64,000 bases of DNA from NCBI GenBank assembly GCA_937916515.1, contig CALFSX010000064.1, positions 62,001-126,000 on the forward strand, read 5' to 3'. The translations under genes were made by a program, and so were the position numbers. Positions 35,682 to 50,231 of the stretch are shown here, piece by piece (position 1 is the first letter of the stretch; each line of letters starts with the position of its first letter). This stretch comes from an uncultured Planctomycetaceae bacterium. GTDB taxonomy: Bacteria; Planctomycetota; Planctomycetia; Planctomycetales; Planctomycetaceae. The notes beneath the pieces were generated by a model. It made no database searches. It was given only the letters and a program-made list of their open reading frames with translations, and was not told the origin of the DNA.

Positions 35682-35809
35682 GTCTTACTTAAAATAAGCC
35701 GAGCACGGTGCGCGCATGTTGGTCATAGCGACAACGGAGCGGCTCGGCGATTCGAGCCCTCTACGCCTTTCTGCGGACCACGCCACTGGGTCAAGGGCCC
35801 TGCCCTTGT
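35682..35809 (-). repeat. Dispersed repeat DR2, copy 4 (inverted)
   Basis: About 128 bp in minus orientation: the hairpin end (CAAGGGC-AGG-GCCCTTG on the minus strand) is at the high-coordinate side and abuts the GTG at 35808. The body shows CCCAGTGGCGTGG and GCCGAGCCGCTCCGTTGTCG on the minus strand, and the tail ATTTTAAGTAAG faces left. The element carries no stop in the downstream gene's frame. Confidence 0.85.
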
Positions 35810-37124
35810 GAGAACATGCGTGATAACATCCTGCGTTGTTCTGTTTTCGCTTGGCGAAGTGCTCACGACCACAGCTTCGGCATGCACAACAGCTGTGGTC
35901 AGTGGGCGGGTCACCAACGATGGACGGCCCTTGCTTTGGAAGAATCGAGATTTTTCGCAAAAGCACAACGAAGTGATCCGACTCACGGGTGGCACTTACA
36001 ACGCGATCGGTGTCGTTAACGCAGGCAGTCGAACGTCCGTTTGGATGGGAACCAATGACGCTGGCTTCTGCATTGAAAATTCTCTGTCGCTCGACCTGAA
36101 CAGCAAGACAACAACAAAGGGCCCCGGCAACGGATCATTGATGCGTCGTGCCCTGGAATCTTGTGCCACAATTGATGACTTCATTAAGCTGTTGAACGAA
36201 ACAGAAAAGACGGGGCGAGTCACGTGCGGCAACTTCGGCGTCATTGACGCCAATGGTGGAGCGGCAATGTTCGAAGTCAGTCGAACCGGACACACCATGT
36301 TTGACGCCAACGATCCCAACACGGCTCCTCACGGCTATATCGTACGTGCAAATTTTTCCACAACAGGACAAAAGCTTCCTCCACTTCCGACGCCGTCGCA
36401 ACTGGCAGGTATTTCATCAGCCGGGCGATACCTGAGAGCTTGCAGTTTGCTGGATTCTCAAACAGACGCGAAGATTTCGGCGGAATTCCTGATTCGAAAT
36501 TGTGCTCGAGACTTGGCTGGACCTGATGGTACATGCTATTCGGGTACAGTGAATTCCACGGAGCCAGATCTGCCGACCGAGATTCCCACAGCCGAAACAA
36601 TCAGCCGCTTCACAACCGTTTCGGCCGCCGTTTTTCATGGAGTCAAGGACGGCGAAGATGCATCACTCACGACGATGTTTGTTTTTCTGGGTGATCCAAA
36701 ATTTTCGATCGCCGTACCATGCTGGGCCGCCGTCTCGGAAATCCCCGACGCACTTCAGGACAAAAGTGGCGGAGAAATCGGCGAAGTCGCTCTCACACTG
36801 CGAGAATGGGGATTCGACTCCAGTGAAGACAAAACTCTCGACACCACCAATCTTCAGGGAATCTGGCAAGACGTGTGGAACGTGGAAGACCAAGTACTTC
36901 TTGACGCGCGAGCAATAAAAGACGCATCCAGCAAAGCTGACGTCGCCGCAAAGGTGCTCGCCGAATTCAGCCATCACACGGCCGCACTGGCAATGAAAAC
37001 CATGCAACAGGAATTGATTCAAGTCAAGAATGCCGCCCTGTCGCTTAACGCTCCTGCAGCGCCAACGTTCGCCGACCGCCCGTCCACGAACGAACCGCAT
37101 CAGCCGGCATTGACTATTGAATAG
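35808..37124 (+). CDS. Secreted C45-type amide hydrolase / acyltransferase (Ntn hydrolase)
   Basis: 438 aa from GTG 35808, or GTG 35820. Either gives a normal signal peptide ending TTTASA, with Cys26 exposed as the new N-terminus (CTTAVVSGRV). An N-terminal Cys nucleophile followed by LLWKNRDFS is the pattern of the C45/C59 linear-amide hydrolase and acyltransferase group. The frame is open back to 35640, but that extension is encoded by DR2 copy 4 and would put ~50 extra residues before the signal peptide. Start choice is thus uncertain. Likely periplasmic; substrate unknown. The next gene starts 97 bp downstream. Confidence 0.8.
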   Translation: MRTCVITSCVVLFSLGEVLTTTASACTTAVVSGRVTNDGRPLLWKNRDFSQKHNEVIRLTGGTYNAIGVVNAGSRTSVWMGTNDAGFCIENSLSLDLNSKTTTKGPGNGSLMRRALESCATIDDFIKLLNETEKTGRVTCGNFGVIDANGGAAMFEVSRTGHTMFDANDPNTAPHGYIVRANFSTTGQKLPPLPTPSQLAGISSAGRYLRACSLLDSQTDAKISAEFLIRNCARDLAGPDGTCYSGTVNSTEPDLPTEIPTAETISRFTTVSAAVFHGVKDGEDASLTTMFVFLGDPKFSIAVPCWAAVSEIPDALQDKSGGEIGEVALTLREWGFDSSEDKTLDTTNLQGIWQDVWNVEDQVLLDARAIKDASSKADVAAKVLAEFSHHTAALAMKTMQQELIQVKNAALSLNAPAAPTFADRPSTNEPHQPALTIE

Positions 37125-41086: not shown

Positions 41087-42283
41087 ATGATGCCCCTTCA
41101 TTCAAATTCGATCGCTTCCGGGCGACTCAACGCTTCATGGTTGCAGACAACCTCTGACCTGTCACTGAACGCTTCAGCGACAACATGTCGTCGCCTGCGT
41201 GTCAGTTCAGCATTCACTAAGCTGTCACTTGCACTGTGCATGTTTGCAGCGGTCGGGTGCGAGCGTGCTGAACCGATTCGGTGGACCCCCAGCGCTCTGG
41301 TCGGCGAATTGCCTGACCAGGAATTGCAGGATCAACTGAACGGGATCGTGAAGGAGAATTCAGGCACTGCTGCAGAGCCTCGCCTTGTGAGTCACCCCAA
41401 AGAAGACTTTGATTTCGAGTTACAGCTAAAACTGGGCCAGGCTGTTTACATGAAGCGGTGCGTGCAGTGCCATGGAATCAACGGCGACGGCAATGGACAC
41501 ATTGCGGATTCGCTGTACCCTCGGCCTCGTGACTACACCCGTGGAATGTTTAAATTCACATCAACGCCGTACGGCACCAAGCCTCGCCATGAAGACCTGG
41601 TTTCGACAATTCGCAAGGGCATTGCCGGAACGTCAATGCCGCGATTTAATCGTATTCCAGACAAAGAAGTCAATGCTGTTGTTGAATACGTCATGGTGCT
41701 TGCTCAACGTGGCGAACTGGAATACCAACTTGCAAGTGAAGCAGAAGCCGCCGAAGAACTGGATCCTGACTACATCCCGGATTTCGTAGATGACGTCATC
41801 AACAGATGGGCGGTTGCCAAAACCAGCCTCACGCAGCCTCTCACTCCTCAACCGGAACTAACACCAGAACGTGCTGTTTTGGGGCGAGAAGCATTTCTGC
41901 AGAAGGGATGCAGCAAATGTCACGGCGAAGACGGTCGCGGACACACCAAAGACAACATTGGCAAAGATTCGTGGGGCAATCCGACGCGAGCCGCCGACCT
42001 CACATCCGGCATGCTGCACGGCGGACAGGAACCGATTGACATTTACCGTCGCATCCTGAACGGGATCAACGGAACTCCCATGCCAGGCTTCAAAAGTGCT
42101 TTGCAGAATGAGCCTGAAACCATTTGGAATCTGGTGTCGTACGTTCTGGAAATTTCCAATCGCCGTCGGTTTGGGGAAAAAATTCCGGCTGGATTAATGA
42201 AGCCGTATGACACAAAGGCGAACATGGCAAAGAGCGAGCCTGAGACCACTGGTGAATTCGACAGCACGTCAGAAGAAGAATAG
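41087..42283 (+). CDS. Di-heme cytochrome c lipoprotein (CcoP-like)
   Basis: 398 aa from ATG 41087 or 41090. A basic stretch (RRLRVSSAFTKLSLAL) leads to the lipobox AAVGC with Cys58, so the mature protein is lipid-anchored. The signal region is unusually long, and a TTG at 41141 could be the true start. The first heme c domain has CVQCH (Cys125, 128, His129) with Met184 in TSMPRF; the second has CSKCH (275-279) with Met332 in TPMPGF. Two class I domains in tandem match the CcoP subunit, but without its usual transmembrane N-terminus. First gene of the cbb3 cluster; likely electron input to CcoN/CcoO. Confidence 0.85.
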   Translation: MMPLHSNSIASGRLNASWLQTTSDLSLNASATTCRRLRVSSAFTKLSLALCMFAAVGCERAEPIRWTPSALVGELPDQELQDQLNGIVKENSGTAAEPRLVSHPKEDFDFELQLKLGQAVYMKRCVQCHGINGDGNGHIADSLYPRPRDYTRGMFKFTSTPYGTKPRHEDLVSTIRKGIAGTSMPRFNRIPDKEVNAVVEYVMVLAQRGELEYQLASEAEAAEELDPDYIPDFVDDVINRWAVAKTSLTQPLTPQPELTPERAVLGREAFLQKGCSKCHGEDGRGHTKDNIGKDSWGNPTRAADLTSGMLHGGQEPIDIYRRILNGINGTPMPGFKSALQNEPETIWNLVSYVLEISNRRRFGEKIPAGLMKPYDTKANMAKSEPETTGEFDSTSEEE

Positions 42284-42349
42284 TTTCGCCTTCCGCTTCA
42301 GCCTTTTCATTCGCCGATCGCTGCCAACAGATATTTTCGAGACAGGTTT

Positions 42350-43024
42350 ATGACAACAGACTTGAAACAGAAACAGCTTGAGCTAACCCAGCTGAAACAG
42401 AAGGTGGCATCGCTGGAGGCCGAAGTGTCTACAGCGACCGCCAGTGACCAATGGAACCATGACAAGTTCTACGGAACGTATTATGGAACTGTAGGCTTCG
42501 TCTTCGGCGGATTTGCGGCAATGGCCTCGCTGCTGTTCAATGTTGTTGGATCAACGATCGCTGGAAAGCATCCTCTGGAAATCATTCGCGTTTACATGAC
42601 CTTTCCTCTGGGCAAAAAAGCGTTGGCTTTGGCGACCTCTGAAGGAACCAAGATGGTCATCAGCGATGGAGTCATTTTGGCACTGGGATGTTGCCTGTAC
42701 ATCGGCACCGGAACCGTGCTGGGCGTTTTGTTTCACTGGGTCATCTGTCGCTTCGCTCTGAAAGCTTCACTTGCGACTCGCCTGTTGTGGGGCACTGCAC
42801 TGGCCGGCGCAATGTGGATTGTGAATTTTTACGGAATCCTGTCCTGGTTGCAGCCAGCATTATTCGGTGGCAACTGGATCACAAACGGTGAATACATGGA
42901 ATGGTGGGTGGCCCTGGCAACTCATCTGGTCTTCGGCTGGACGATGGCCCTGATTGCACCACTGGGTGCGTTTGAGCCCTATAAACGCCCAACCGAACAA
43001 ACGCCGGCAGTGACTGGCATGTAA
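42350..43024 (+). CDS. Multi-pass membrane protein of the cbb3 cluster, unknown
   Basis: 224 aa, not recognised. The first ~35 residues (LKQKQLELTQLKQKVASLEA) are a cytoplasmic-looking coiled coil. Four or five hydrophobic segments follow (about residues 48-70, 105-135, 140-160 and 185-205). No heme or copper ligands are clear. It lies 66 bp after the di-heme cytochrome gene and 110 bp before ccoN, so it is probably a subunit or assembly factor of the same complex; this is inference from position only. Confidence 0.75.
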   Translation: MTTDLKQKQLELTQLKQKVASLEAEVSTATASDQWNHDKFYGTYYGTVGFVFGGFAAMASLLFNVVGSTIAGKHPLEIIRVYMTFPLGKKALALATSEGTKMVISDGVILALGCCLYIGTGTVLGVLFHWVICRFALKASLATRLLWGTALAGAMWIVNFYGILSWLQPALFGGNWITNGEYMEWWVALATHLVFGWTMALIAPLGAFEPYKRPTEQTPAVTGM

Positions 43025-43134
43025 ACTGGCTTAAAGAACGTCAACAGAGTGATTCCGAGCGGCAGCTCGCCCCCCAAAAGCAAGAGCCATTCTCTTGCTG
43101 GTTTGAACTCATTCAAGAGATTTGAAATCGATTC

Positions 43135-44562
43135 ATGTCTGAAGCATTAAACGAAGCTGTGACGACCAGTCACGAAGAAGTGAAGTCCAGCGAAGAACTG
43201 GTAGACCAGACGCTGGTCAAACTCTACTTCTGTACAGCACTTACGTTTCTTACGGTTGCTATGCTGGCAGGGCTGTTGATGGCCTTTCAGCTGATTCGCC
43301 ATAACCCATTGCGAGGCATTGAACTGTTTTCGCCGGGACGCTGGCGAATGGTACACACCAACGCAATTGCGTATGGTTTTCTGGCAAACGGATTTATTGG
43401 AGCGTTGCACTGGATTGTGCCCCGCCTGACTCTGCAGCCTGTTTTCAGCAAAAAGCTGTCATGGCTGATCTATGCCGCCTGGCAGGGAGTTGTGGGAGCA
43501 ACCGCTGTTGGAATTCTGCTTGGTGAAGCTCAGGGGCTTGAGTGGGGCGAAACTCCTGTTTGGGTGGACCCTTTTGCACAGCTTGGACTTGGCCTGCTGG
43601 CATTAAACTTCATGCCACCGATTGCTCGCATGAAAGGTCCGATTTATGTCACGCTGTGGTACTTCATGGCCATGTTTGTCTGGACATTCCTGACATACGC
43701 CATGGGCAACTTTGTGCCTGAATACTTTGTCACCGGCACCAGCGCTGGTGCCGTGGGTGGTTTGTTCATCCATGACCTTGTCGGTTTGTTCGTAACGCCT
43801 CTGGGATGGGGCATGATGTACTACTTCGTTCCGATCCTGCTGAAGAAGCCAATCTGGAGTCACGGGCTTTCGCTTGTTGGCTTCTGGGGACTGGCCTTCT
43901 TTTATCCGTTGCAGGGCATTCACCATTTTCTATACACGCCCATCCCTATGTTTCTGCAGTATGGAGCCGTGGTTTCCACAATCGCGGTGGAACTGGTTGT
44001 CACCACAGTGATTGTCAACTTCTTTGGAACACTGTGGGGATCTGGTAGTGCAGTAAAAACCAATCTTCCCATTCGCTGGTTCTATACCGGAATGATCTTC
44101 TACTTCCTGACATGTCTGCAGTGTGCGTTTCAGGTGACATTGACATTTCAAAAGATCATCCACTTTACCGACTGGGTGGTCGGACACGCTCATATGGTGA
44201 TGTTTGGCGTATTTACAATGTGGATTATGGGCATGATGACTTACCTGTTTCCGCGACTGTTAAACCGAGGATGGTACAGCCTCAAAGCCTGCGAATGGCA
44301 CTACTGGCTGTCCACAATCGGAATCGCAGTCATGTCTGCAGACCTGTTTTTACTGGGATTGTTTCAAGGATGGTCGTGGGCAGCGTTGGAGCCGTGGGAC
44401 GCATCCGTTGAAATCTCCTATCCATTCTGGATTTTGCGGACGATCGCTGGCTTGTCGATGTTCGCCGGGCTTCTTGTATTCTTGTGGAACCTGCTGAAGA
44501 CATGGACTTCAGTTCCTGAACAAACGGCTGTCGCTGACGTTTCAAATGCTGCAACAGCCTAA
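43135..44562 (+). CDS. ccoN: cbb3-type cytochrome c oxidase subunit I
   Basis: 475 aa with twelve predicted membrane segments. Expected ligands are visible: His74 (RMVHTNAIAYGF) for low-spin heme b, His213 (IHDLVGLFVTPLGWGMMYYF) and the His263-His264 pair (QGIHHFLY) for CuB, and GHAHMVMFG with His351 and His353 for the high- and low-spin hemes. This is the catalytic subunit that reduces oxygen with high affinity in the inner membrane. The stop codon lies inside the first bases of DR2 copy 6, which separates it from ccoO. Confidence 0.95.
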   Translation: MSEALNEAVTTSHEEVKSSEELVDQTLVKLYFCTALTFLTVAMLAGLLMAFQLIRHNPLRGIELFSPGRWRMVHTNAIAYGFLANGFIGALHWIVPRLTLQPVFSKKLSWLIYAAWQGVVGATAVGILLGEAQGLEWGETPVWVDPFAQLGLGLLALNFMPPIARMKGPIYVTLWYFMAMFVWTFLTYAMGNFVPEYFVTGTSAGAVGGLFIHDLVGLFVTPLGWGMMYYFVPILLKKPIWSHGLSLVGFWGLAFFYPLQGIHHFLYTPIPMFLQYGAVVSTIAVELVVTTVIVNFFGTLWGSGSAVKTNLPIRWFYTGMIFYFLTCLQCAFQVTLTFQKIIHFTDWVVGHAHMVMFGVFTMWIMGMMTYLFPRLLNRGWYSLKACEWHYWLSTIGIAVMSADLFLLGLFQGWSWAALEPWDASVEISYPFWILRTIAGLSMFAGLLVFLWNLLKTWTSVPEQTAVADVSNAATA

Positions 44563-44690
44563 CAAGGGCTTCGCCCTTGCCCCAGTGGCGTGGCCTGCGT
44601 GAGAACCTGGAAAGTTCTAGTCGCCAGGCCGCTCCGTTGTCGCTGCGAAAAGATCCGCACCGAGTGTGCATCATATCGAATAAGATTCCA
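44558..44690 (+). repeat. Dispersed repeat DR2, copy 6, between ccoN and ccoO
   Basis: About 133 bp. It starts CCTAA, where TAA is the ccoN stop, then the hairpin CAAGGGC-TTC-GCCCTTG, CCCCAGTGGCGTGG, a diverged GC-rich block and an AATAAGATTC tail. It occupies most of the 202-bp gap between the two oxidase subunit genes. Confidence 0.85.
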
Positions 44691-44764
44691 AGAACAGTTG
44701 GCAACCAGTTAACTACAAACCATCGCGTAATATCAATTCGTCTTCACAGATTTGAAATACAGTC

Positions 44765-45493
44765 ATGTTCGAAAGCAAAGCAGGCATTCTTTACATCGCC
44801 GGGATCGGCTTCTTTGTGTTGGCCTTCGTGTCCAACGCATTGGTGCCGGCACTGATGTACAACGACCTTCCGGAACAAACCGTCGAAGAACTGATTAACA
44901 GTAACCTGCGATATCAGTTTGAAGATCTGGCACGCCGCTATCCGGATTCATTCAAGGAAGCGTACGGAGAATCACCTGGCGGTGAAGCCGAACACGATGC
45001 CTGGTGGAACGAAAAATGTGCAGAAGCTCTGCGATATGGCCGCAAGCTGTATGTCGGAGAAGGTTGCTGGCATTGTCACAGCCAGTTTGTTCGACCGGTA
45101 TCGAACGAAGAACAGCGTTGGGGACCGGTATCGCGTTCGGCAGAATATCAAAACGAACTGCAGCGACCCGTGATGTTTGGCACACGCCGAGTCGGTCCAG
45201 ACCTGTCGCGTGAAGGCGGACGACGCAGCAACGATTGGCACACGGTACACTTCTTTCGGCCACTGGATCTGTCCGAAGGATCGCCAATGCCTGAATATCC
45301 GTGGTTCTTTGACGGATCGCCCGATAAGCCGAACGCTCGTGGGCTGGCCATTATCACCTATGTGCAATGGCTTGGATCATGGCAGGAAAGCTACCCATAC
45401 TATGAAGACTACGTTCCATCCAGAGAGCGTCCTGAAGAAGAAGAAGACGCCGAGGCGGATAACGAAGATGCTGCCGCTGAAGACGACGCCTAG
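44765..45493 (+). CDS. ccoO: cbb3-type cytochrome c oxidase subunit II (mono-heme)
   Basis: 242 aa. One N-terminal membrane anchor (residues ~8-30) and a periplasmic heme c domain with CWHCH (Cys101, Cys104, His105) in GEGCWHCHSQFVRPV, the CcoO signature, plus RRVGPDLSREGGRRSNDWH and a late Met in SPMPEYPW. The C-terminus is very acidic (EEEEDAEADNEDAAAEDDA). It passes electrons to CcoN. The start region shares AGATTTGAAAT and TCATG with the ccoN leader. Confidence 0.94.
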   Translation: MFESKAGILYIAGIGFFVLAFVSNALVPALMYNDLPEQTVEELINSNLRYQFEDLARRYPDSFKEAYGESPGGEAEHDAWWNEKCAEALRYGRKLYVGEGCWHCHSQFVRPVSNEEQRWGPVSRSAEYQNELQRPVMFGTRRVGPDLSREGGRRSNDWHTVHFFRPLDLSEGSPMPEYPWFFDGSPDKPNARGLAIITYVQWLGSWQESYPYYEDYVPSRERPEEEEDAEADNEDAAAEDDA

Positions 45494-45587
45494 CGATACT
45501 TCCAGACTGGCAACCCATAGGGTCTTATCGGCTGCCGCAACACATCTGAAATCATTCCAAAACGTTACGTACTCGTAAAGACAAATC

Positions 45588-45935
45588 ATGTCCGGCAATA
45601 CTGAAACCACGCAGAGTACCGATCCCCAACAGACGCCTCGTCGGCGAGGTGTCGCGTGGATCATTACGATCGTATTTGCGGTGTTGATTCTGATTCCCAG
45701 CATGCTGGGATTCGTCATGAAGTTTATGGAACTCATCCACCTGACTCAGGGAGAAACGGACGGAGGATTCGCGATCACTCCGGTTGTAAACTACCTGCTT
45801 GCCAGCGCCGGATTTTTCTTCATGCTGCTGTGGGCTGGAGCAAACGGAATGTTTAACGACCTCGAAAAACCCAAATACTTTATGCTCGAAAACGAAAGCC
45901 GACTGGACGAACTGGACAACTACGTCGAGCGCTGA
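45588..45935 (+). CDS. Small membrane protein of the cbb3 cluster, unknown
   Basis: 115 aa with two hydrophobic segments, about residues 22-48 (ITIVFAVLILIPSMLGF) and 62-84 (NYLLASAGFFFMLLWAG). No cysteine pairs, heme or copper motif. Polar ends carry a basic N-terminal RRRG before the first helix. It lies 94 bp after ccoO and 230 bp before a 64-aa single-TM protein gene. The position suggests a small oxidase subunit or assembly protein; not recognised as CcoH or CcoQ. Confidence 0.75.
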   Translation: MSGNTETTQSTDPQQTPRRRGVAWIITIVFAVLILIPSMLGFVMKFMELIHLTQGETDGGFAITPVVNYLLASAGFFFMLLWAGANGMFNDLEKPKYFMLENESRLDELDNYVER

Positions 45936-46165
45936 TTTCCCACAAACAGCGGACACACTCACCGAATCGCATTGAACGAACTGCTTTCCCCATGCAACTT
46001 GTGAGCTGCCCAAAGTGTTGACCTGCATCGACCGGCGCAATGAAATTAGCTGAACCACCACGATCGCCGTCAGTTCAATAATACATCAGTGAGCGTGCAG
46101 CACTGAATTGAACAGTTGGCCGGAATCGAATCAAACATATTCAAAACAGAAACCTGCGATCAGCC

Positions 46166-46360
46166 ATGATTGAAGTCACAAACAGCGAAACCGTTGAGCA
46201 ACCAGCTGCGGAACACGAGCATACATTCCACCACTATCGCGGCAACGCCATTCCATGGTATGTGCGAGCCATTTGGTTGGGCTTCTGGATATTCGCTGTC
46301 TACTACATCATTACCTACTTTTTTCCGGCCATGCAGATCGAGCTTATTTCGCCTCCGTAA
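46166..46360 (+). CDS. Single-TM peptide resembling the N-terminus of CcoP (or CcoQ)
   Basis: 64 aa. A polar His-rich N-terminus (EHEHTFHHYRGNAIPWY) leads into one membrane helix (VRAIWLGFWIFAVYYIITYF). The 'G..IPWYV..IWLGFWIFAVYY' pattern resembles the N-terminal anchor of CcoP, which precedes the two hemes in classical proteins. Here the hemes are in a separate lipoprotein at the start of the cluster. It lies 38 bp before the ccoI-like gene. CcoQ is the alternative; sequence cannot separate them. Confidence 0.7.
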   Translation: MIEVTNSETVEQPAAEHEHTFHHYRGNAIPWYVRAIWLGFWIFAVYYIITYFFPAMQIELISPP

Positions 46361-46398: not shown

Positions 46399-48861
46399 AT
46401 GAGCGACGCCGGGACAGACATGCAAATCAACAAACCGCAGACTCAACAAGCGGTCGCGGCAGATTGCTGTACCTGGTGCGGACTTCCGGCTGGCGTCGCC
46501 AAACCCGTTGCTGATGAAAATGCACCAAAGCACCGGCAAAAGCCTGATCCAGAAAACATCTATTGTTGTTACGGCTGCCGATTTGCTCATGCAGTTGTAA
46601 AAGAGCAGGGGGCTGAAGGCGCCATTCGCTGGACCGTTATTCGTCTTGGTTTGGCCATATTCTTCACGATGAATCTGATGGCATTCACAATGACCATGTG
46701 GTCGCTGGATGTCTATAACGTGGAAGCCGATCCGTTTCAGCAAACGCTGTTTGAAGTGTTTCGCTGGCTAAGCATGGTGCTGGCCCTCCCGGTGTTGCTG
46801 CTGCTGGGAATTCCGCTGCTGCAAAACGCGATCGCCAGTTGGCGGCAGAAAATCTATTCCACAGACCTACTGATCGCATTGGCTGTTGCTGCCGCCTACG
46901 TCATCTCTGCTGTCAACGTTGTTCGAGAAACCGGGACGATCTATTTCGAAGTCGGCGCCACTGTTCTGGTGATGATCACGCTTGGCCGCTGGATTGAAGC
47001 AGTTGGCAAACAGAAAGCGACGGAAGCTCTGGACAAGCTGATGGCGCTGCTGCCGGACTTTGTGTCCAAAGTAAGTGATGCTGAAGCAGATCAGGAAATT
47101 TCCATCGCAGCAACGGACGTTGTTGCAGGCGACATATTACACGTTAGAGCCGGAGAGCGCTTCGCCGTTGACTCACAGATTCTGCGTGGGCAAACTTCGG
47201 TTGATGAACAGGTCTTTACGGGAGAAAGTCTGCCAGTACCCAAATCCGCAGGTGATTCCGTTTTAGCAGGCACAGTCAACCTCGACGGTGACATTCTGGT
47301 GCAGGCGACTTCCGCACTTCGTGAGGGTTCGTTCGGCCGCCTGCTTGATGTTCTAAGAGAAGCACGAAACGCACGCGGCTATTACCAGCGCATGGCTGAC
47401 AAAGCGGCTTCTGTTTTCTTCCCGCTGATCACGCTTGTTGCAGCTAGTGCCTTTGCGTGGCACCTGTCGGCCGGAATCGACGTCGCGTTGCAGGTTGCAA
47501 TGTCCGTACTGTTAATTGCGTGCCCGTGTGCTCTGGGACTTGCTACGCCGCTGGCTGTATGGACAGCGTTAAGCACTGCAGTGAAACATCAGGTTTTGTT
47601 TCGAAGCGGAGAAGCAATCGAACGCCTGGCCCAAGTCAAAGCTGTTTGCTGCGACAAGACAGGAACACTGACAACCGGCAATCCACGAGTTTTTCAAACT
47701 GCGTTTTTTTCCGGCTCTGACCGCCAGCAGGCAATGGCTTTGGCGGAACATCTGGCAAACCTTTCGTCTCATCCGTTTTCGCGAGCTGTTGCGACGTGCA
47801 TCAGCCAGCAAACTTCAGAAGACAGCTTGCCCGCAATTATCGTGGGAATCGAAAACCTGATTTCGTCAGTCCGTACAATCAGTGGTGGAGGCGTGGAAGC
47901 CGTTGGTGACAATGGTCGGCTGTTCCGTTTGGGAAGCGTGGAATTCAGCTGCTGCAGCCTTCACCAGACGCAGCAGTCATCCGTTGCCGCTCCGGAACTT
48001 TGCGTCACATGCAGGTCGGGTGTGCCGCTGGGCGTGCGAGTGCAACTGGATAGACTGCGGATGGCGGCTGATCAGCAGGCCGCGTCAATCGTACTATTGT
48101 CCATTGATCGAGCCCCCGCTGTAGGCTTTCTAATTGCAGAATCAATTCGCCCCGACGCGACAAACGCATTGAAGGAACTGTCGAAGCAGGTTGACGAACT
48201 GCTGGTACTGTCAGGCGATCGTCCGGCAAAGGGTCGATTTCTGAAAGAACAGCTGAACGTCGCCGGCCTGACGGTCGAATGTGGCCTGAATCCACAACAG
48301 AAAGTCGACAAGGTACTGGAAACACGCAGTAAATTCGGCACCACGGTAATGGTGGGTGATGGCATCAACGATGCTCCCGCGCTGGCCGCCAGCGACGTCG
48401 GCATTGCGATGGGTTGCGGTACAGATGTCTCGCGAGATTCAGCGCAGGTCTGCCTGCTTAGCAACGACCTGTCTCGTATTCCGTGGGCAATCGATTTAGC
48501 TCGACGAACCCGCACCGTGATTCGCCAAAATCTGTTTTGGGCGTTTGGATATAATTCCATCGGTGTCTGCCTGGCTGCATCAGGACGCCTGAACCCAGCG
48601 ACTGCCGCGGGCTTGATGATTGCCAGCAGCCTATTGGTGATTTCCAATTCACTAAGACTGCTTAACGCAAAAACAACGGTCACCGGGGAAACACCGAAAG
48701 GCATAGAAGACAATGATGATTCCGGGCAGCGCACGGCAAACGATCAACAGCCCCTGGAAAGCAACACAGCCACCGCAACTGATGGCGAAATAACATTTGT
48801 GGCTCACACAAACCTGAATGATAGTCAGACCAAAACGGCGATGGCCGAGGTGTTGCCGTGA
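46399..48861 (+). CDS. ccoI: Copper-translocating P1B-type ATPase of the cbb3 assembly type
   Basis: 820 aa. The N-terminus has the metal-binding domain typical of FixI/CcoI: CTWCGLP (Cys24, Cys27) and YCCYGCRFAH (Cys56, 57, 60). Then come six to eight membrane helices, the actuator TGES loop, the ion-path motif ACPCALGLATP, the phosphorylation motif DKTGTLT, and GDGINDAPALAASDVG. This subgroup exports Cu(I) to supply the CuB centre of cbb3 oxidase. The C-terminal ~70 residues are a polar extension. The next gene starts inside its stop codon (4-bp overlap), so the two are translationally coupled. Confidence 0.93.
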   Translation: MSDAGTDMQINKPQTQQAVAADCCTWCGLPAGVAKPVADENAPKHRQKPDPENIYCCYGCRFAHAVVKEQGAEGAIRWTVIRLGLAIFFTMNLMAFTMTMWSLDVYNVEADPFQQTLFEVFRWLSMVLALPVLLLLGIPLLQNAIASWRQKIYSTDLLIALAVAAAYVISAVNVVRETGTIYFEVGATVLVMITLGRWIEAVGKQKATEALDKLMALLPDFVSKVSDAEADQEISIAATDVVAGDILHVRAGERFAVDSQILRGQTSVDEQVFTGESLPVPKSAGDSVLAGTVNLDGDILVQATSALREGSFGRLLDVLREARNARGYYQRMADKAASVFFPLITLVAASAFAWHLSAGIDVALQVAMSVLLIACPCALGLATPLAVWTALSTAVKHQVLFRSGEAIERLAQVKAVCCDKTGTLTTGNPRVFQTAFFSGSDRQQAMALAEHLANLSSHPFSRAVATCISQQTSEDSLPAIIVGIENLISSVRTISGGGVEAVGDNGRLFRLGSVEFSCCSLHQTQQSSVAAPELCVTCRSGVPLGVRVQLDRLRMAADQQAASIVLLSIDRAPAVGFLIAESIRPDATNALKELSKQVDELLVLSGDRPAKGRFLKEQLNVAGLTVECGLNPQQKVDKVLETRSKFGTTVMVGDGINDAPALAASDVGIAMGCGTDVSRDSAQVCLLSNDLSRIPWAIDLARRTRTVIRQNLFWAFGYNSIGVCLAASGRLNPATAAGLMIASSLLVISNSLRLLNAKTTVTGETPKGIEDNDDSGQRTANDQQPLESNTATATDGEITFVAHTNLNDSQTKTAMAEVLP

Positions 48862-49616
48862 ATTCCCTTGTCTATGAACTGCCACTTGTATTCGTAAGTG
48901 GCGTGCTGGGTTCGGCTCATTGCATCGGCATGTGCGGAGCAATTTCCGCGACGATGAACATCGGCGCCAAAGGAATTCAGGGAGCGCTGATACGGCAGAT
49001 ACTGTGGAGCATCGGGCGAACATTTACCTATGCGTTTTTGGGAATGCTGGCCGGATTTTCAGGAGCTCGCTTAACCAGATCCGACTACTTGTCAGCACAA
49101 ACAAGCGTTATTAACTATCAAGCCGCGTTTGCAATACTGGCGGGCTTGCTGCTGATGATGCAGGGTCTAATCGCGACGGGCTGGATACGCAGACGAAAGA
49201 ACATCAGGCAAATCGGCGGACAAACGTCCTGCCTGACTGCCAGCATTTTCGGCTCCTTTCTTCGAGGAGGTTCCAACGTGGGCGTGTTTGTTGCAGGTAT
49301 CCTGACTGGTTTTCTGCCGTGTGGCCTGGTGTATTCATTTCTGGCTCTGGCAGCTGCCACAGCCAGCGTGTGGAAAGCCCCGCTTCTGATGACCGCCTTC
49401 GGTTTGGGAACCGTGCCCGTGATGTTGGTTACAGGAGTCGGATTAACTATGGCGTCATTGAAGATGAGGCAACGACTGATGAAAGCCGCCGCTGTCTGCG
49501 TGCTGGTGACAGGCGTTCTGGCGGTTGGCCGTGGCATCGCGTTCGCCGCAAATTCGAATTCAGAAAAACCACAGGAAGCATGCCCCTTTTGCGCGGCGAA
49601 AGACAGTGCTCCCTGA
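48858..49616 (+). CDS. SafE/CcdA-like membrane protein of cbb3 assembly
   Basis: 252 aa from GTG 48858, overlapping the upstream TGA by four bases. About six membrane segments. Landmarks are GVLGSAHCIGMCGAISATM near the N-terminus and AGILTGFLPCGLVYSFLALA, the paired motifs (one with HC..MCG, one with PCG) of the 'sulfite exporter TauE/SafE' proteins related to the cytochrome c biogenesis transmembrane family. Such genes commonly follow ccoI. It probably helps in copper or heme delivery to the oxidase; the exact function is not established. The C-terminus ends with CPFCAAK. Confidence 0.85.
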   Translation: MNSLVYELPLVFVSGVLGSAHCIGMCGAISATMNIGAKGIQGALIRQILWSIGRTFTYAFLGMLAGFSGARLTRSDYLSAQTSVINYQAAFAILAGLLLMMQGLIATGWIRRRKNIRQIGGQTSCLTASIFGSFLRGGSNVGVFVAGILTGFLPCGLVYSFLALAAATASVWKAPLLMTAFGLGTVPVMLVTGVGLTMASLKMRQRLMKAAAVCVLVTGVLAVGRGIAFAANSNSEKPQEACPFCAAKDSAP

Positions 49617-49691: not shown

Positions 49692-50231
49692 ATGTCTGAA
49701 AACCCAGAGTCTCCCACCGAAACAGCCCCAACGCCCGCGACGCCACTGAACAGCATTGCCGCCAGCAGCCGCGGTCGCAAGCAGCCACTGCTGCACCATG
49801 ACGACCACGAACACACTCATGCTCCCGCAAATCAATCCGCTGGACGCATCTCAAAGACGCTGGTCAACTTCTGGCTGGACGGTCTGCTGAGCATTGTCTT
49901 TGTGAATCTGTGCATCATCGCCGTAATTGTGCAATTCGTTTTTCCACCGGGCATCGCCGCCAGGGGAGTCACATTGTGGGGCATGAATTATGGCCAATGG
50001 TGCAGTATACAATTTGCAGTGTTGGCATTTCTGGGACTGGGTATTCTGCTGCACGTAATGTTGCACTGGACATGGGTGTGCAGCGTGTTGGCCAAACGCG
50101 TTCTGGGTAAAAATGAAGTTCCCGACGACGGCATCCGCACGCTGTACGGCGTTGGACTGCTGATCGGCCTGTTGTTAACGGGAGCCGTCACAGTGGGGAT
50201 TGCTCAGTGGATGATCGTGATACCGCAATGA
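49692..50231 (+). CDS. Three-helix membrane protein, DUF4405-like
   Basis: 179 aa. A polar, His-rich N-terminus (HHDDHEHTHAP, ~residues 35-45) could bind metal. Three membrane segments follow (~65-85, 105-130 and 152-175). In the middle one, GILLHVMLHWTWVCSVLAK resembles the 'H...HW.W' helix of DUF4405/cytochrome-b561-like proteins, so heme binding is conceivable. It lies 75 bp after the SafE-like gene on the same strand and ends the cluster. Function unknown. Confidence 0.7.
   Translation: MSENPESPTETAPTPATPLNSIAASSRGRKQPLLHHDDHEHTHAPANQSAGRISKTLVNFWLDGLLSIVFVNLCIIAVIVQFVFPPGIAARGVTLWGMNYGQWCSIQFAVLAFLGLGILLHVMLHWTWVCSVLAKRVLGKNEVPDDGIRTLYGVGLLIGLLLTGAVTVGIAQWMIVIPQ

Follow-up and report, generated by a model that had tools for sequence, protein, structure and literature searches.

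A planctomycete cbb3-type oxidase cluster without a one-chain CcoP, in which a free membrane peptide and a diheme lipoprotein probably share the roles of the missing subunit

CcoP is treated as a defining subunit of cbb3 oxidases, and in the canonical CcoNO(Q)P (FixNOQP) systems it is a single chain. The cluster described here lies in a stretch of 64,000 nucleotides from an uncultured Planctomycetaceae bacterium (assembly GCA_937916515.1, contig CALFSX010000064.1, positions 62,001 to 126,000, forward strand), the whole of which is referred to below as the window. The cluster resembles the canonical systems in the fold, ligands and active-site Tyr of CcoN and in the presence of CcoO, CcoI, a CcoS-like protein and a DsbD_2 protein; a DsbD_2 protein also follows ccoS in a canonical Shewanella cluster (L173). 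It differs from them in having no one-chain CcoP, in encoding instead a separate diheme c-type cytochrome with a lipobox-like Cys (LipC) and a free membrane peptide (S64), and in two residues of CcoN, with Gln in place of Glu and Gly in place of Trp. On balance, it probably encodes a C-family (cbb3-type) oxygen reductase in which the two jobs of CcoP are split between S64 and LipC. Canonical planctomycete cbb3 loci, in comparison, combine a fused CcoNO with a one-heme CcoP in 16/16 cases (L279–L294), all picked from hits to FixP_N, the family of the CcoP anchor.

Among described enzymes, the oxidases of Nitrospina gracilis and Sinorhizobium have His202, Gly203 and Tyr208, and the Nitrospina gracilis chain fuses subunits I, II and III, according to PMC3578206. 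The planctomycete clade of the window extends the Gly203 reported there, but not His202 or Tyr208. In the CcoN tree, the Sinorhizobium locus L171 branches on the same side as the window, with which it has both Gln and Gly in common. In these oxidases, Nitrospina being covered through that paper, a diheme unit is covalently joined to CcoO, whereas in the window it is a separate lipoprotein. CcoO is also joined to c domains in the putative bifunctional CcoO/cytochrome c family NF011054 (PRK14486); LipC, a separate chain, scores 45.9 bits with this model, well below its 447-bit cut-off. A further relative of LipC is the diheme chain of structure 6h5l, which is taken to be Kustc0457 of an anammox HAO-like complex on the strength of the PDB title and Table 1 of PMC6423088. 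This chain has the same two-domain diheme fold and arrangement as the predicted LipC model, but it is paired with an HAO-like enzyme instead of an oxidase. No description of a free CcoP-anchor peptide was found in the literature searched, and an earlier notice of CcoP-less clusters may exist.

The cluster is real and conserved, and its split layout is the usual one in this clade. The arrangement described in the initial annotation, CcoN and CcoO without a standard CcoP and a diheme lipoprotein-like gene opening the cluster, is present at the expected positions in the window (Table 1) and recurs in other Planctomycetota. A scan of genome contigs with CcoN returned at least 574 relatives, of which the best 80 loci were kept (79 titled as planctomycetes, one titled 'bacterium'), with one best family retained per open reading frame (ORF). 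The usual order in these loci is LipC, a membrane protein (M224), ccoN, ccoO, a ccoS-like gene, S64, ccoI and DsbD_2. Where enough downstream DNA is available, S64 is present in 66 of 68 loci; where enough upstream DNA is available, LipC is present in 61 of 66 (raw counts: S64 69/80, LipC 69/80, M224 77/80). Loci carrying the cluster include ones named as Bythopirellula polymerisocia (L222), Lacipirellula limnantheis (L246) and Aquisphaera insulae (L226). When genomes were searched for S64 itself, it was recovered in 20/58, including the source genome, with E-values from 1.9e-41 to 1.9e-8; matches at E up to 1 extend to 34/58, those beyond the 20 being taken as noise. The nineteen other neighbourhoods were compared with that of the window, and those uncut by contig ends show the order LipC, M224, CcoN, CcoO, M115 (the ccoS-like gene), S64, CcoI, except that S64 follows the DsbD_2 gene in L050, LipC is missing from L054 and L038 has no CcoI match. 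The recovery of S64 in 20/58 genomes, adjoining CcoN, CcoO and CcoI genes in the neighbourhoods that are not truncated, indicates that these genes keep company by more than chance. In more distant planctomycetes, most clusters of sufficient length still contain LipC and S64, but M224 is often absent.

A full-length ccoP elsewhere in the genome, which the initial annotation had named as evidence against a split subunit, was looked for and not detected in the source genome or in the S64-bearing genomes searched. In the source genome (99.34% complete, 343 contigs), FixP_N gave two sub-threshold matches only (E 0.37 and 0.54), the better of which is a membrane ORF without CxxCH; the second (L002) was inspected as DNA. 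No chain combining a FixP_N anchor with a heme c domain was found in this genome, and in the window the two are separate genes. FixP_N had no match at E 0.001 in any of the 20/20 S64-bearing genomes, TIGR00782 (ccoP) had none above its cut-off in the 5/5 searched, and FixP_N was the best family of no ORF among the best 80 loci. Across a sample of 294 genomes from the phylum, FixP_N occurs in 56 at E up to 0.001 (53 above the cut-off) and S64 in 24, with zero overlap (hypergeometric 0.005, uncorrected for kinship). A wider S64 profile (A6) found 41 genomes in this sample with a single overlap, G171, in which the FixP_N match is itself a free 55-residue peptide. The fragmentation of the source assembly into 343 contigs would leave room for an ordinary ccoP, but three of the S64-bearing genomes without FixP_N are single contigs (G004, G011, G038) and already contradict this explanation; with no above-threshold match from either model in the genomes searched, it was rejected as extremely improbable. 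A split CcoP would account for the failure of family models to detect ccoP in these planctomycetes.

S64 is best read as a free FixP_N peptide, the likeness lying at the level of the family, and judged from these profile comparisons the CcoP anchor most likely survives in it. An alignment of 19 S64 sequences scored 28.7 (77%) in hhalign against 34 FixP_N segments, 26.5 (63%) after addition of distant S64 sequences and 33.1 (89%) after addition of two rhizobial peptides. By comparison, 81 control membrane windows from seven cluster proteins reached at best 21.2 and 17.5 against FixP_N, where S64 scored 28.7 and 26.5. The suggestion that the peptide might align better with CcoQ was not borne out: S64 scored 15.9 with CcoQ, below the control maximum of 21.2, and 11.6 with the N-terminus of CcoH, also below that maximum, the full range for CcoQ, CcoH and CcoS being 8.7 to 17.0 (reference sets of 4, 11 and 4 sequences, respectively). 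These three families were rejected as identities of S64, having lower scores than FixP_N. FixQ is not among the Pfam families matched by the A6 set, CcoQ (PF05545) has no match in the source genome at E 0.1, and the one match to CcoH (PF05751) there is confined to the latter half of the profile and lies in a 946-residue frame on a different contig. S64 matched neither TIGR00782 nor, as a profile, anything in the PDB.

The weightiest link between S64 and FixP_N is a free 55-residue peptide in a related planctomycete cluster (L301), which scores 30.3 bits with FixP_N and exceeds its cut-off of 24.9; the same cluster contains CcoI, an M115-like gene and a CcoO-diheme fusion. The planctomycete S64 profile (A1) gives 12.5, 16.2 and 21.9 bits for the peptides of L301, L302 and L308, where the highest score among 5913 control ORFs is 6.5, and a FixP_N profile gives 27.4, 14.4 and 13.3 bits for the same peptides, against 8.4 for the best control. 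Ranked by a FixP_N profile among 5981 short ORFs of 45 to 140 residues (68 of them S64), S64 fills 19 of the top 30 places, although individual S64 proteins score low, at most 13.5 bits, with an area under the curve of 0.76 against other membrane ORFs. The CcoP-anchor likeness noticed at the outset in the peptide of the window in this way holds up for its family, through hhalign and the peptides of L301, L302 and L308, while the single protein has no FixP_N hit. The rhizobial peptides were picked by eye, and since both are included in A6, their scores with the wider profile (S64b) arise by construction. The Arg with which the helix opens suggests a cytoplasmic N-terminus for S64.

LipC has Cys58 behind a hydrophobic stretch, and Gly57-Cys58, Met184 and Met332 are invariant in 49/49 rows of its alignment (A4; the window and 48 of 52 candidates, all pre-selected for exactly two CxxCH); both Met are ligands, and the CxxCH pairs are invariant by selection. 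The Gly-Cys pair is lipobox-like, but the proposed lipid anchoring in place of a helix does not extend across the clade: on inspection of the N-termini by eye, a lipobox is lacking in L114 and L117 and not clear in L112, and the protein of L120 looks helix-anchored. A PDB profile search placed 6h5l_B first (1.5e-50) and CcoP chains second (9.8e-11). The predicted LipC model (predicted local distance difference test, pLDDT, 85.3) matches 6h5l_B over both domains (Z 23.2, root mean square deviation 2.1 Å, 215/220 residues) and the CcoP chain 3mk7_C over 89 residues (Z 11.5); in the VIA-align list, most rows test only one LipC domain well.

Units of the LipC type also occur as tails of CcoO in rhizobia and Paraburkholderia (L169, L170, L171; LipC profile E 1.3e-28 to 2e-53) and in two planctomycete loci (L301, L308). 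The Sinorhizobium form of this CcoO-diheme fusion was found in 39 plasmid records at an E limit of 1e-40, of which 34 are from Sinorhizobium, 4 from Rhizobium and 1 from Phyllobacterium. These fusions make it very likely that LipC feeds CcoO, and LipC most likely represents a mobile electron-entry module, not a piece of CcoP. In the source genome a second diheme cytochrome of the LipC family, with a lipobox-like Cys, stands ahead of CoxB (with a CuA motif) and CoxA (L276 7346-8794, contig C185). Two genomes without LipC in their cbb3 clusters, G038 and G073, likewise have their best LipC match inside the A-type oxidase cluster, ahead of CoxB and CoxA. LipC-type genes with extra hemes stand beside CcoN and S64 in two loci, with four CxxCH in L120 (10582-12255) and seven in a frame of L302 (3715-5457).

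CcoN of the window belongs, by its residues and its place in the tree, to a deep clade of the C-family (cbb3) oxidases. The set compared comprised 95 rows (the window, 79 loci, 12 distant planctomycete rows, two rhizobia and Paraburkholderia), from which ORFs of 400 residues or fewer had been dropped (L176 among the 80 loci and 3/15 distant hits); canonical CcoN was cut to its first 560 residues, and L111 and L239 are identical rows. The His ligands and the Tyr of the oxidase site are kept in 95/95 clade rows. A reading of the protein as a nitric oxide reductase is not favoured, because this Tyr is kept throughout. Gln replaces the canonical Glu of the TFEGP motif in 95/95 clade rows (codon 329 of the window's CcoN), Glu being present in 20/20 canonical rows; the canonical residue is presumably Glu323, as placed by offset. 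Gly replaces a canonical Trp in 94/95 clade rows (codon 209 of the window's CcoN), and the two substitutions mark the whole clade. An unrooted CcoN tree, in which 16/79 clade rows drawn at random were included, separates the clade from the canonical set at 100/100; branches are long, and the placement of the rhizobia and Paraburkholderia is less sure. The source genome has four COX1-family genes, the CcoN of the window among these.

The proposed arrangement starts from the observed gene content, synteny and conservation, the lack of a detectable full CcoP, the likeness of S64 to FixP_N with its bridging peptide, and the fusion of LipC-type units to CcoO. LipC and S64 would both bind CcoN and CcoO. 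S64 would be inserted as a free FixP_N helix, cytoplasmic N-terminus first, and occupy the packing place of the CcoP anchor against CcoN, while LipC, as an electron-entry module of the 6h5l_B type, would be tethered by its lipid to the outward-facing side of the membrane. A periplasmic donor would hand electrons to the LipC hemes, from which they would reach the heme c of CcoO, then heme b and finally the heme b3-CuB site of CcoN. Roles in assembly would fall to CcoI, the CcoS-like protein and the DsbD_2 protein.

Several results count against this arrangement. The S64 of the window alone has no FixP_N hit, that is, it stays below the gathering score of 24.9 bits (PF14715), and no S64 member from the genus of the window matches FixP_N singly. 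Among 67 S64 members, Pfam reports FixP_N in 3 at E up to 1, with another family found equally often, and the lowest FixP_N E-value (0.015) belongs to a rhizobial peptide. With FixP_N as the query, S64 scores 23.2 and 27.2 against 20.5 for the best control, a small margin, and the hhalign score failed to rise once the bridging peptides had been added to the S64 profile (30.4 vs 33.1). S64 profiles built from planctomycetes alone miss the rhizobial peptides, and an S64-like peptide was not found in the Paraburkholderia locus L169. LipC is missing where S64 is retained in 5/66 clusters and in L054, and its family can act without replacing CcoP, since the paralog accompanies a CuA oxidase. The low scores of single S64 proteins would also suit a small assembly or stability factor of the CcoQ or CcoH kind, unrelated to CcoP, with LipC alone replacing that subunit; S64 directly precedes ccoI, as ccoH does in the canonical clusters L172 and L173. 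The hhalign scores with CcoQ, CcoH and CcoS, drawn from small reference sets, and the L301 peptide, which exceeds the FixP_N cut-off, speak against such a factor and make it rather improbable.

The clusters without LipC and the LipC-type proteins beside A-type oxidases could reflect a dedicated donor cytochrome that is not a subunit, leaving a CcoN-CcoO core with one heme c and serving the A-type oxidase as well. Such a donor is unlikely given the tight synteny (61/66) and the loci in which a like unit is covalently fused to CcoO, namely those of rhizobia and Paraburkholderia together with L301 and L308. A descent of LipC from the heme half of CcoP, severed from its anchor, could be argued from its best NCBIfam family, TIGR00782 (55.4 bits, below the equivalog cut-off of 179.95), and from the second rank of CcoP chains in the PDB profile search. 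Both the profile and the structural comparison place 6h5l_B far closer, however, and in a heme-domain tree a branch (SH-like approximate likelihood ratio test, SH-aLRT, 95) separates all 16 CcoP domains from the LipC, fused and A-type-linked domains. This tree has 120 columns and no bootstrap and is weakly resolved, its CcoP domains coming from 8/16 canonical planctomycete loci and 4 plasmids, and the second LipC domains are scattered in it. The fold match to 6h5l_B and the paralog preceding CoxB indicate that LipC is probably not the CcoP half by descent, which is accordingly given very little credence. The initial proposal that two parts could rebuild CcoP as separate chains is supported for the anchor, S64, and for the electron-entry job of LipC, as judged from synteny and the CcoO fusions, but not for LipC as a descendant of CcoP: the heme role was most likely taken over by a diheme module from another lineage.

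If CcoP is divided between S64 and LipC, its membrane and redox roles look separable in this clade, the redox role being filled by a module with relatives that accompany an A-type oxidase or, as in 6h5l, an HAO-like enzyme. The split would provide a natural test of the function of the CcoP helix alone, and its conservation suggests that respiratory enzymes can consist of exchangeable parts. The clade also ties the odd oxidases of Sinorhizobium (and, per the literature, Nitrospina) to a large planctomycete group with an altered active-site surround. As a tentative extension, the clade may be a separate class of C-family oxidases assembled from interchangeable modules, with Gln in place of Glu323 and Gly in place of Trp203 as its hallmarks; its unfused layout, with a free FixP_N helix and the diheme module as a lipoprotein or a CcoO tail, could conceivably be the older one, and the one-chain CcoP a later fusion of the FixP_N helix with a different heme c domain. 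The CcoN tree, being unrooted, would fit either order.

Two further members of the cluster, M224 and M115, had not been named in the initial annotation. M224 is a conserved membrane protein adjoining CcoN in 77/80 loci and missing from several distant clusters (alignment A5; the window and 57 of 68 candidates). It has no Pfam, NCBIfam or PHROGs family, its PDB profile search was unconvincing, and Foldseek returned no match with E under 0.001 for its confident AlphaFold model (pLDDT 89.8). On modest evidence, M115 resembles a CcoS extended by one helix: its profile matches short CcoS-sized ORFs in 5/16 canonical planctomycete loci (2e-4 to 4e-4), and its hhalign scores with CcoS (20.4), FixP_N (20.6) and CcoQ (19.9) do not separate these families.

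Table 1. Genes of the oxidase cluster and adjoining genes, in coordinates of the window.
Feature	Coordinates	Strand	Remarks
LipC, diheme c-type cytochrome	41087-42283	+	398 aa (amino acids), two CxxCH, lipobox-like Gly57-Cys58; start codon uncertain
M224, 224-aa membrane protein, predicted helix bundle with long N-terminal helix	42350-43024	+	
CcoN, catalytic subunit, divergent C-family clade	43135-44562	+	
CcoO, monoheme subunit (FixO)	44765-45493	+	FixO E 5.8e-33
M115, 115-aa two-helix protein, CcoS-like C-terminal part	45588-45935	+	FixS E 0.0066, below cut-off
S64, 64 aa, free FixP_N-like (CcoP anchor) membrane peptide	46166-46360	+	
CcoI, copper P-type ATPase	46399-48861	+	
DsbD_2 / TauE-SafE-like membrane protein	48858-49616	+	
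DUF4405-like membrane protein	49692-50231	+	41/80 related loci

The gap between ccoN and ccoO contains a dispersed repeat of about 85-118 bases (window 44559-44680), an inverted copy of which, 74% alike, lies at window 35727-35812. The repeat has at least 52 matches in the source genome, including its own copy (40/578 candidates scored), and forms a tandem run on contig C318.

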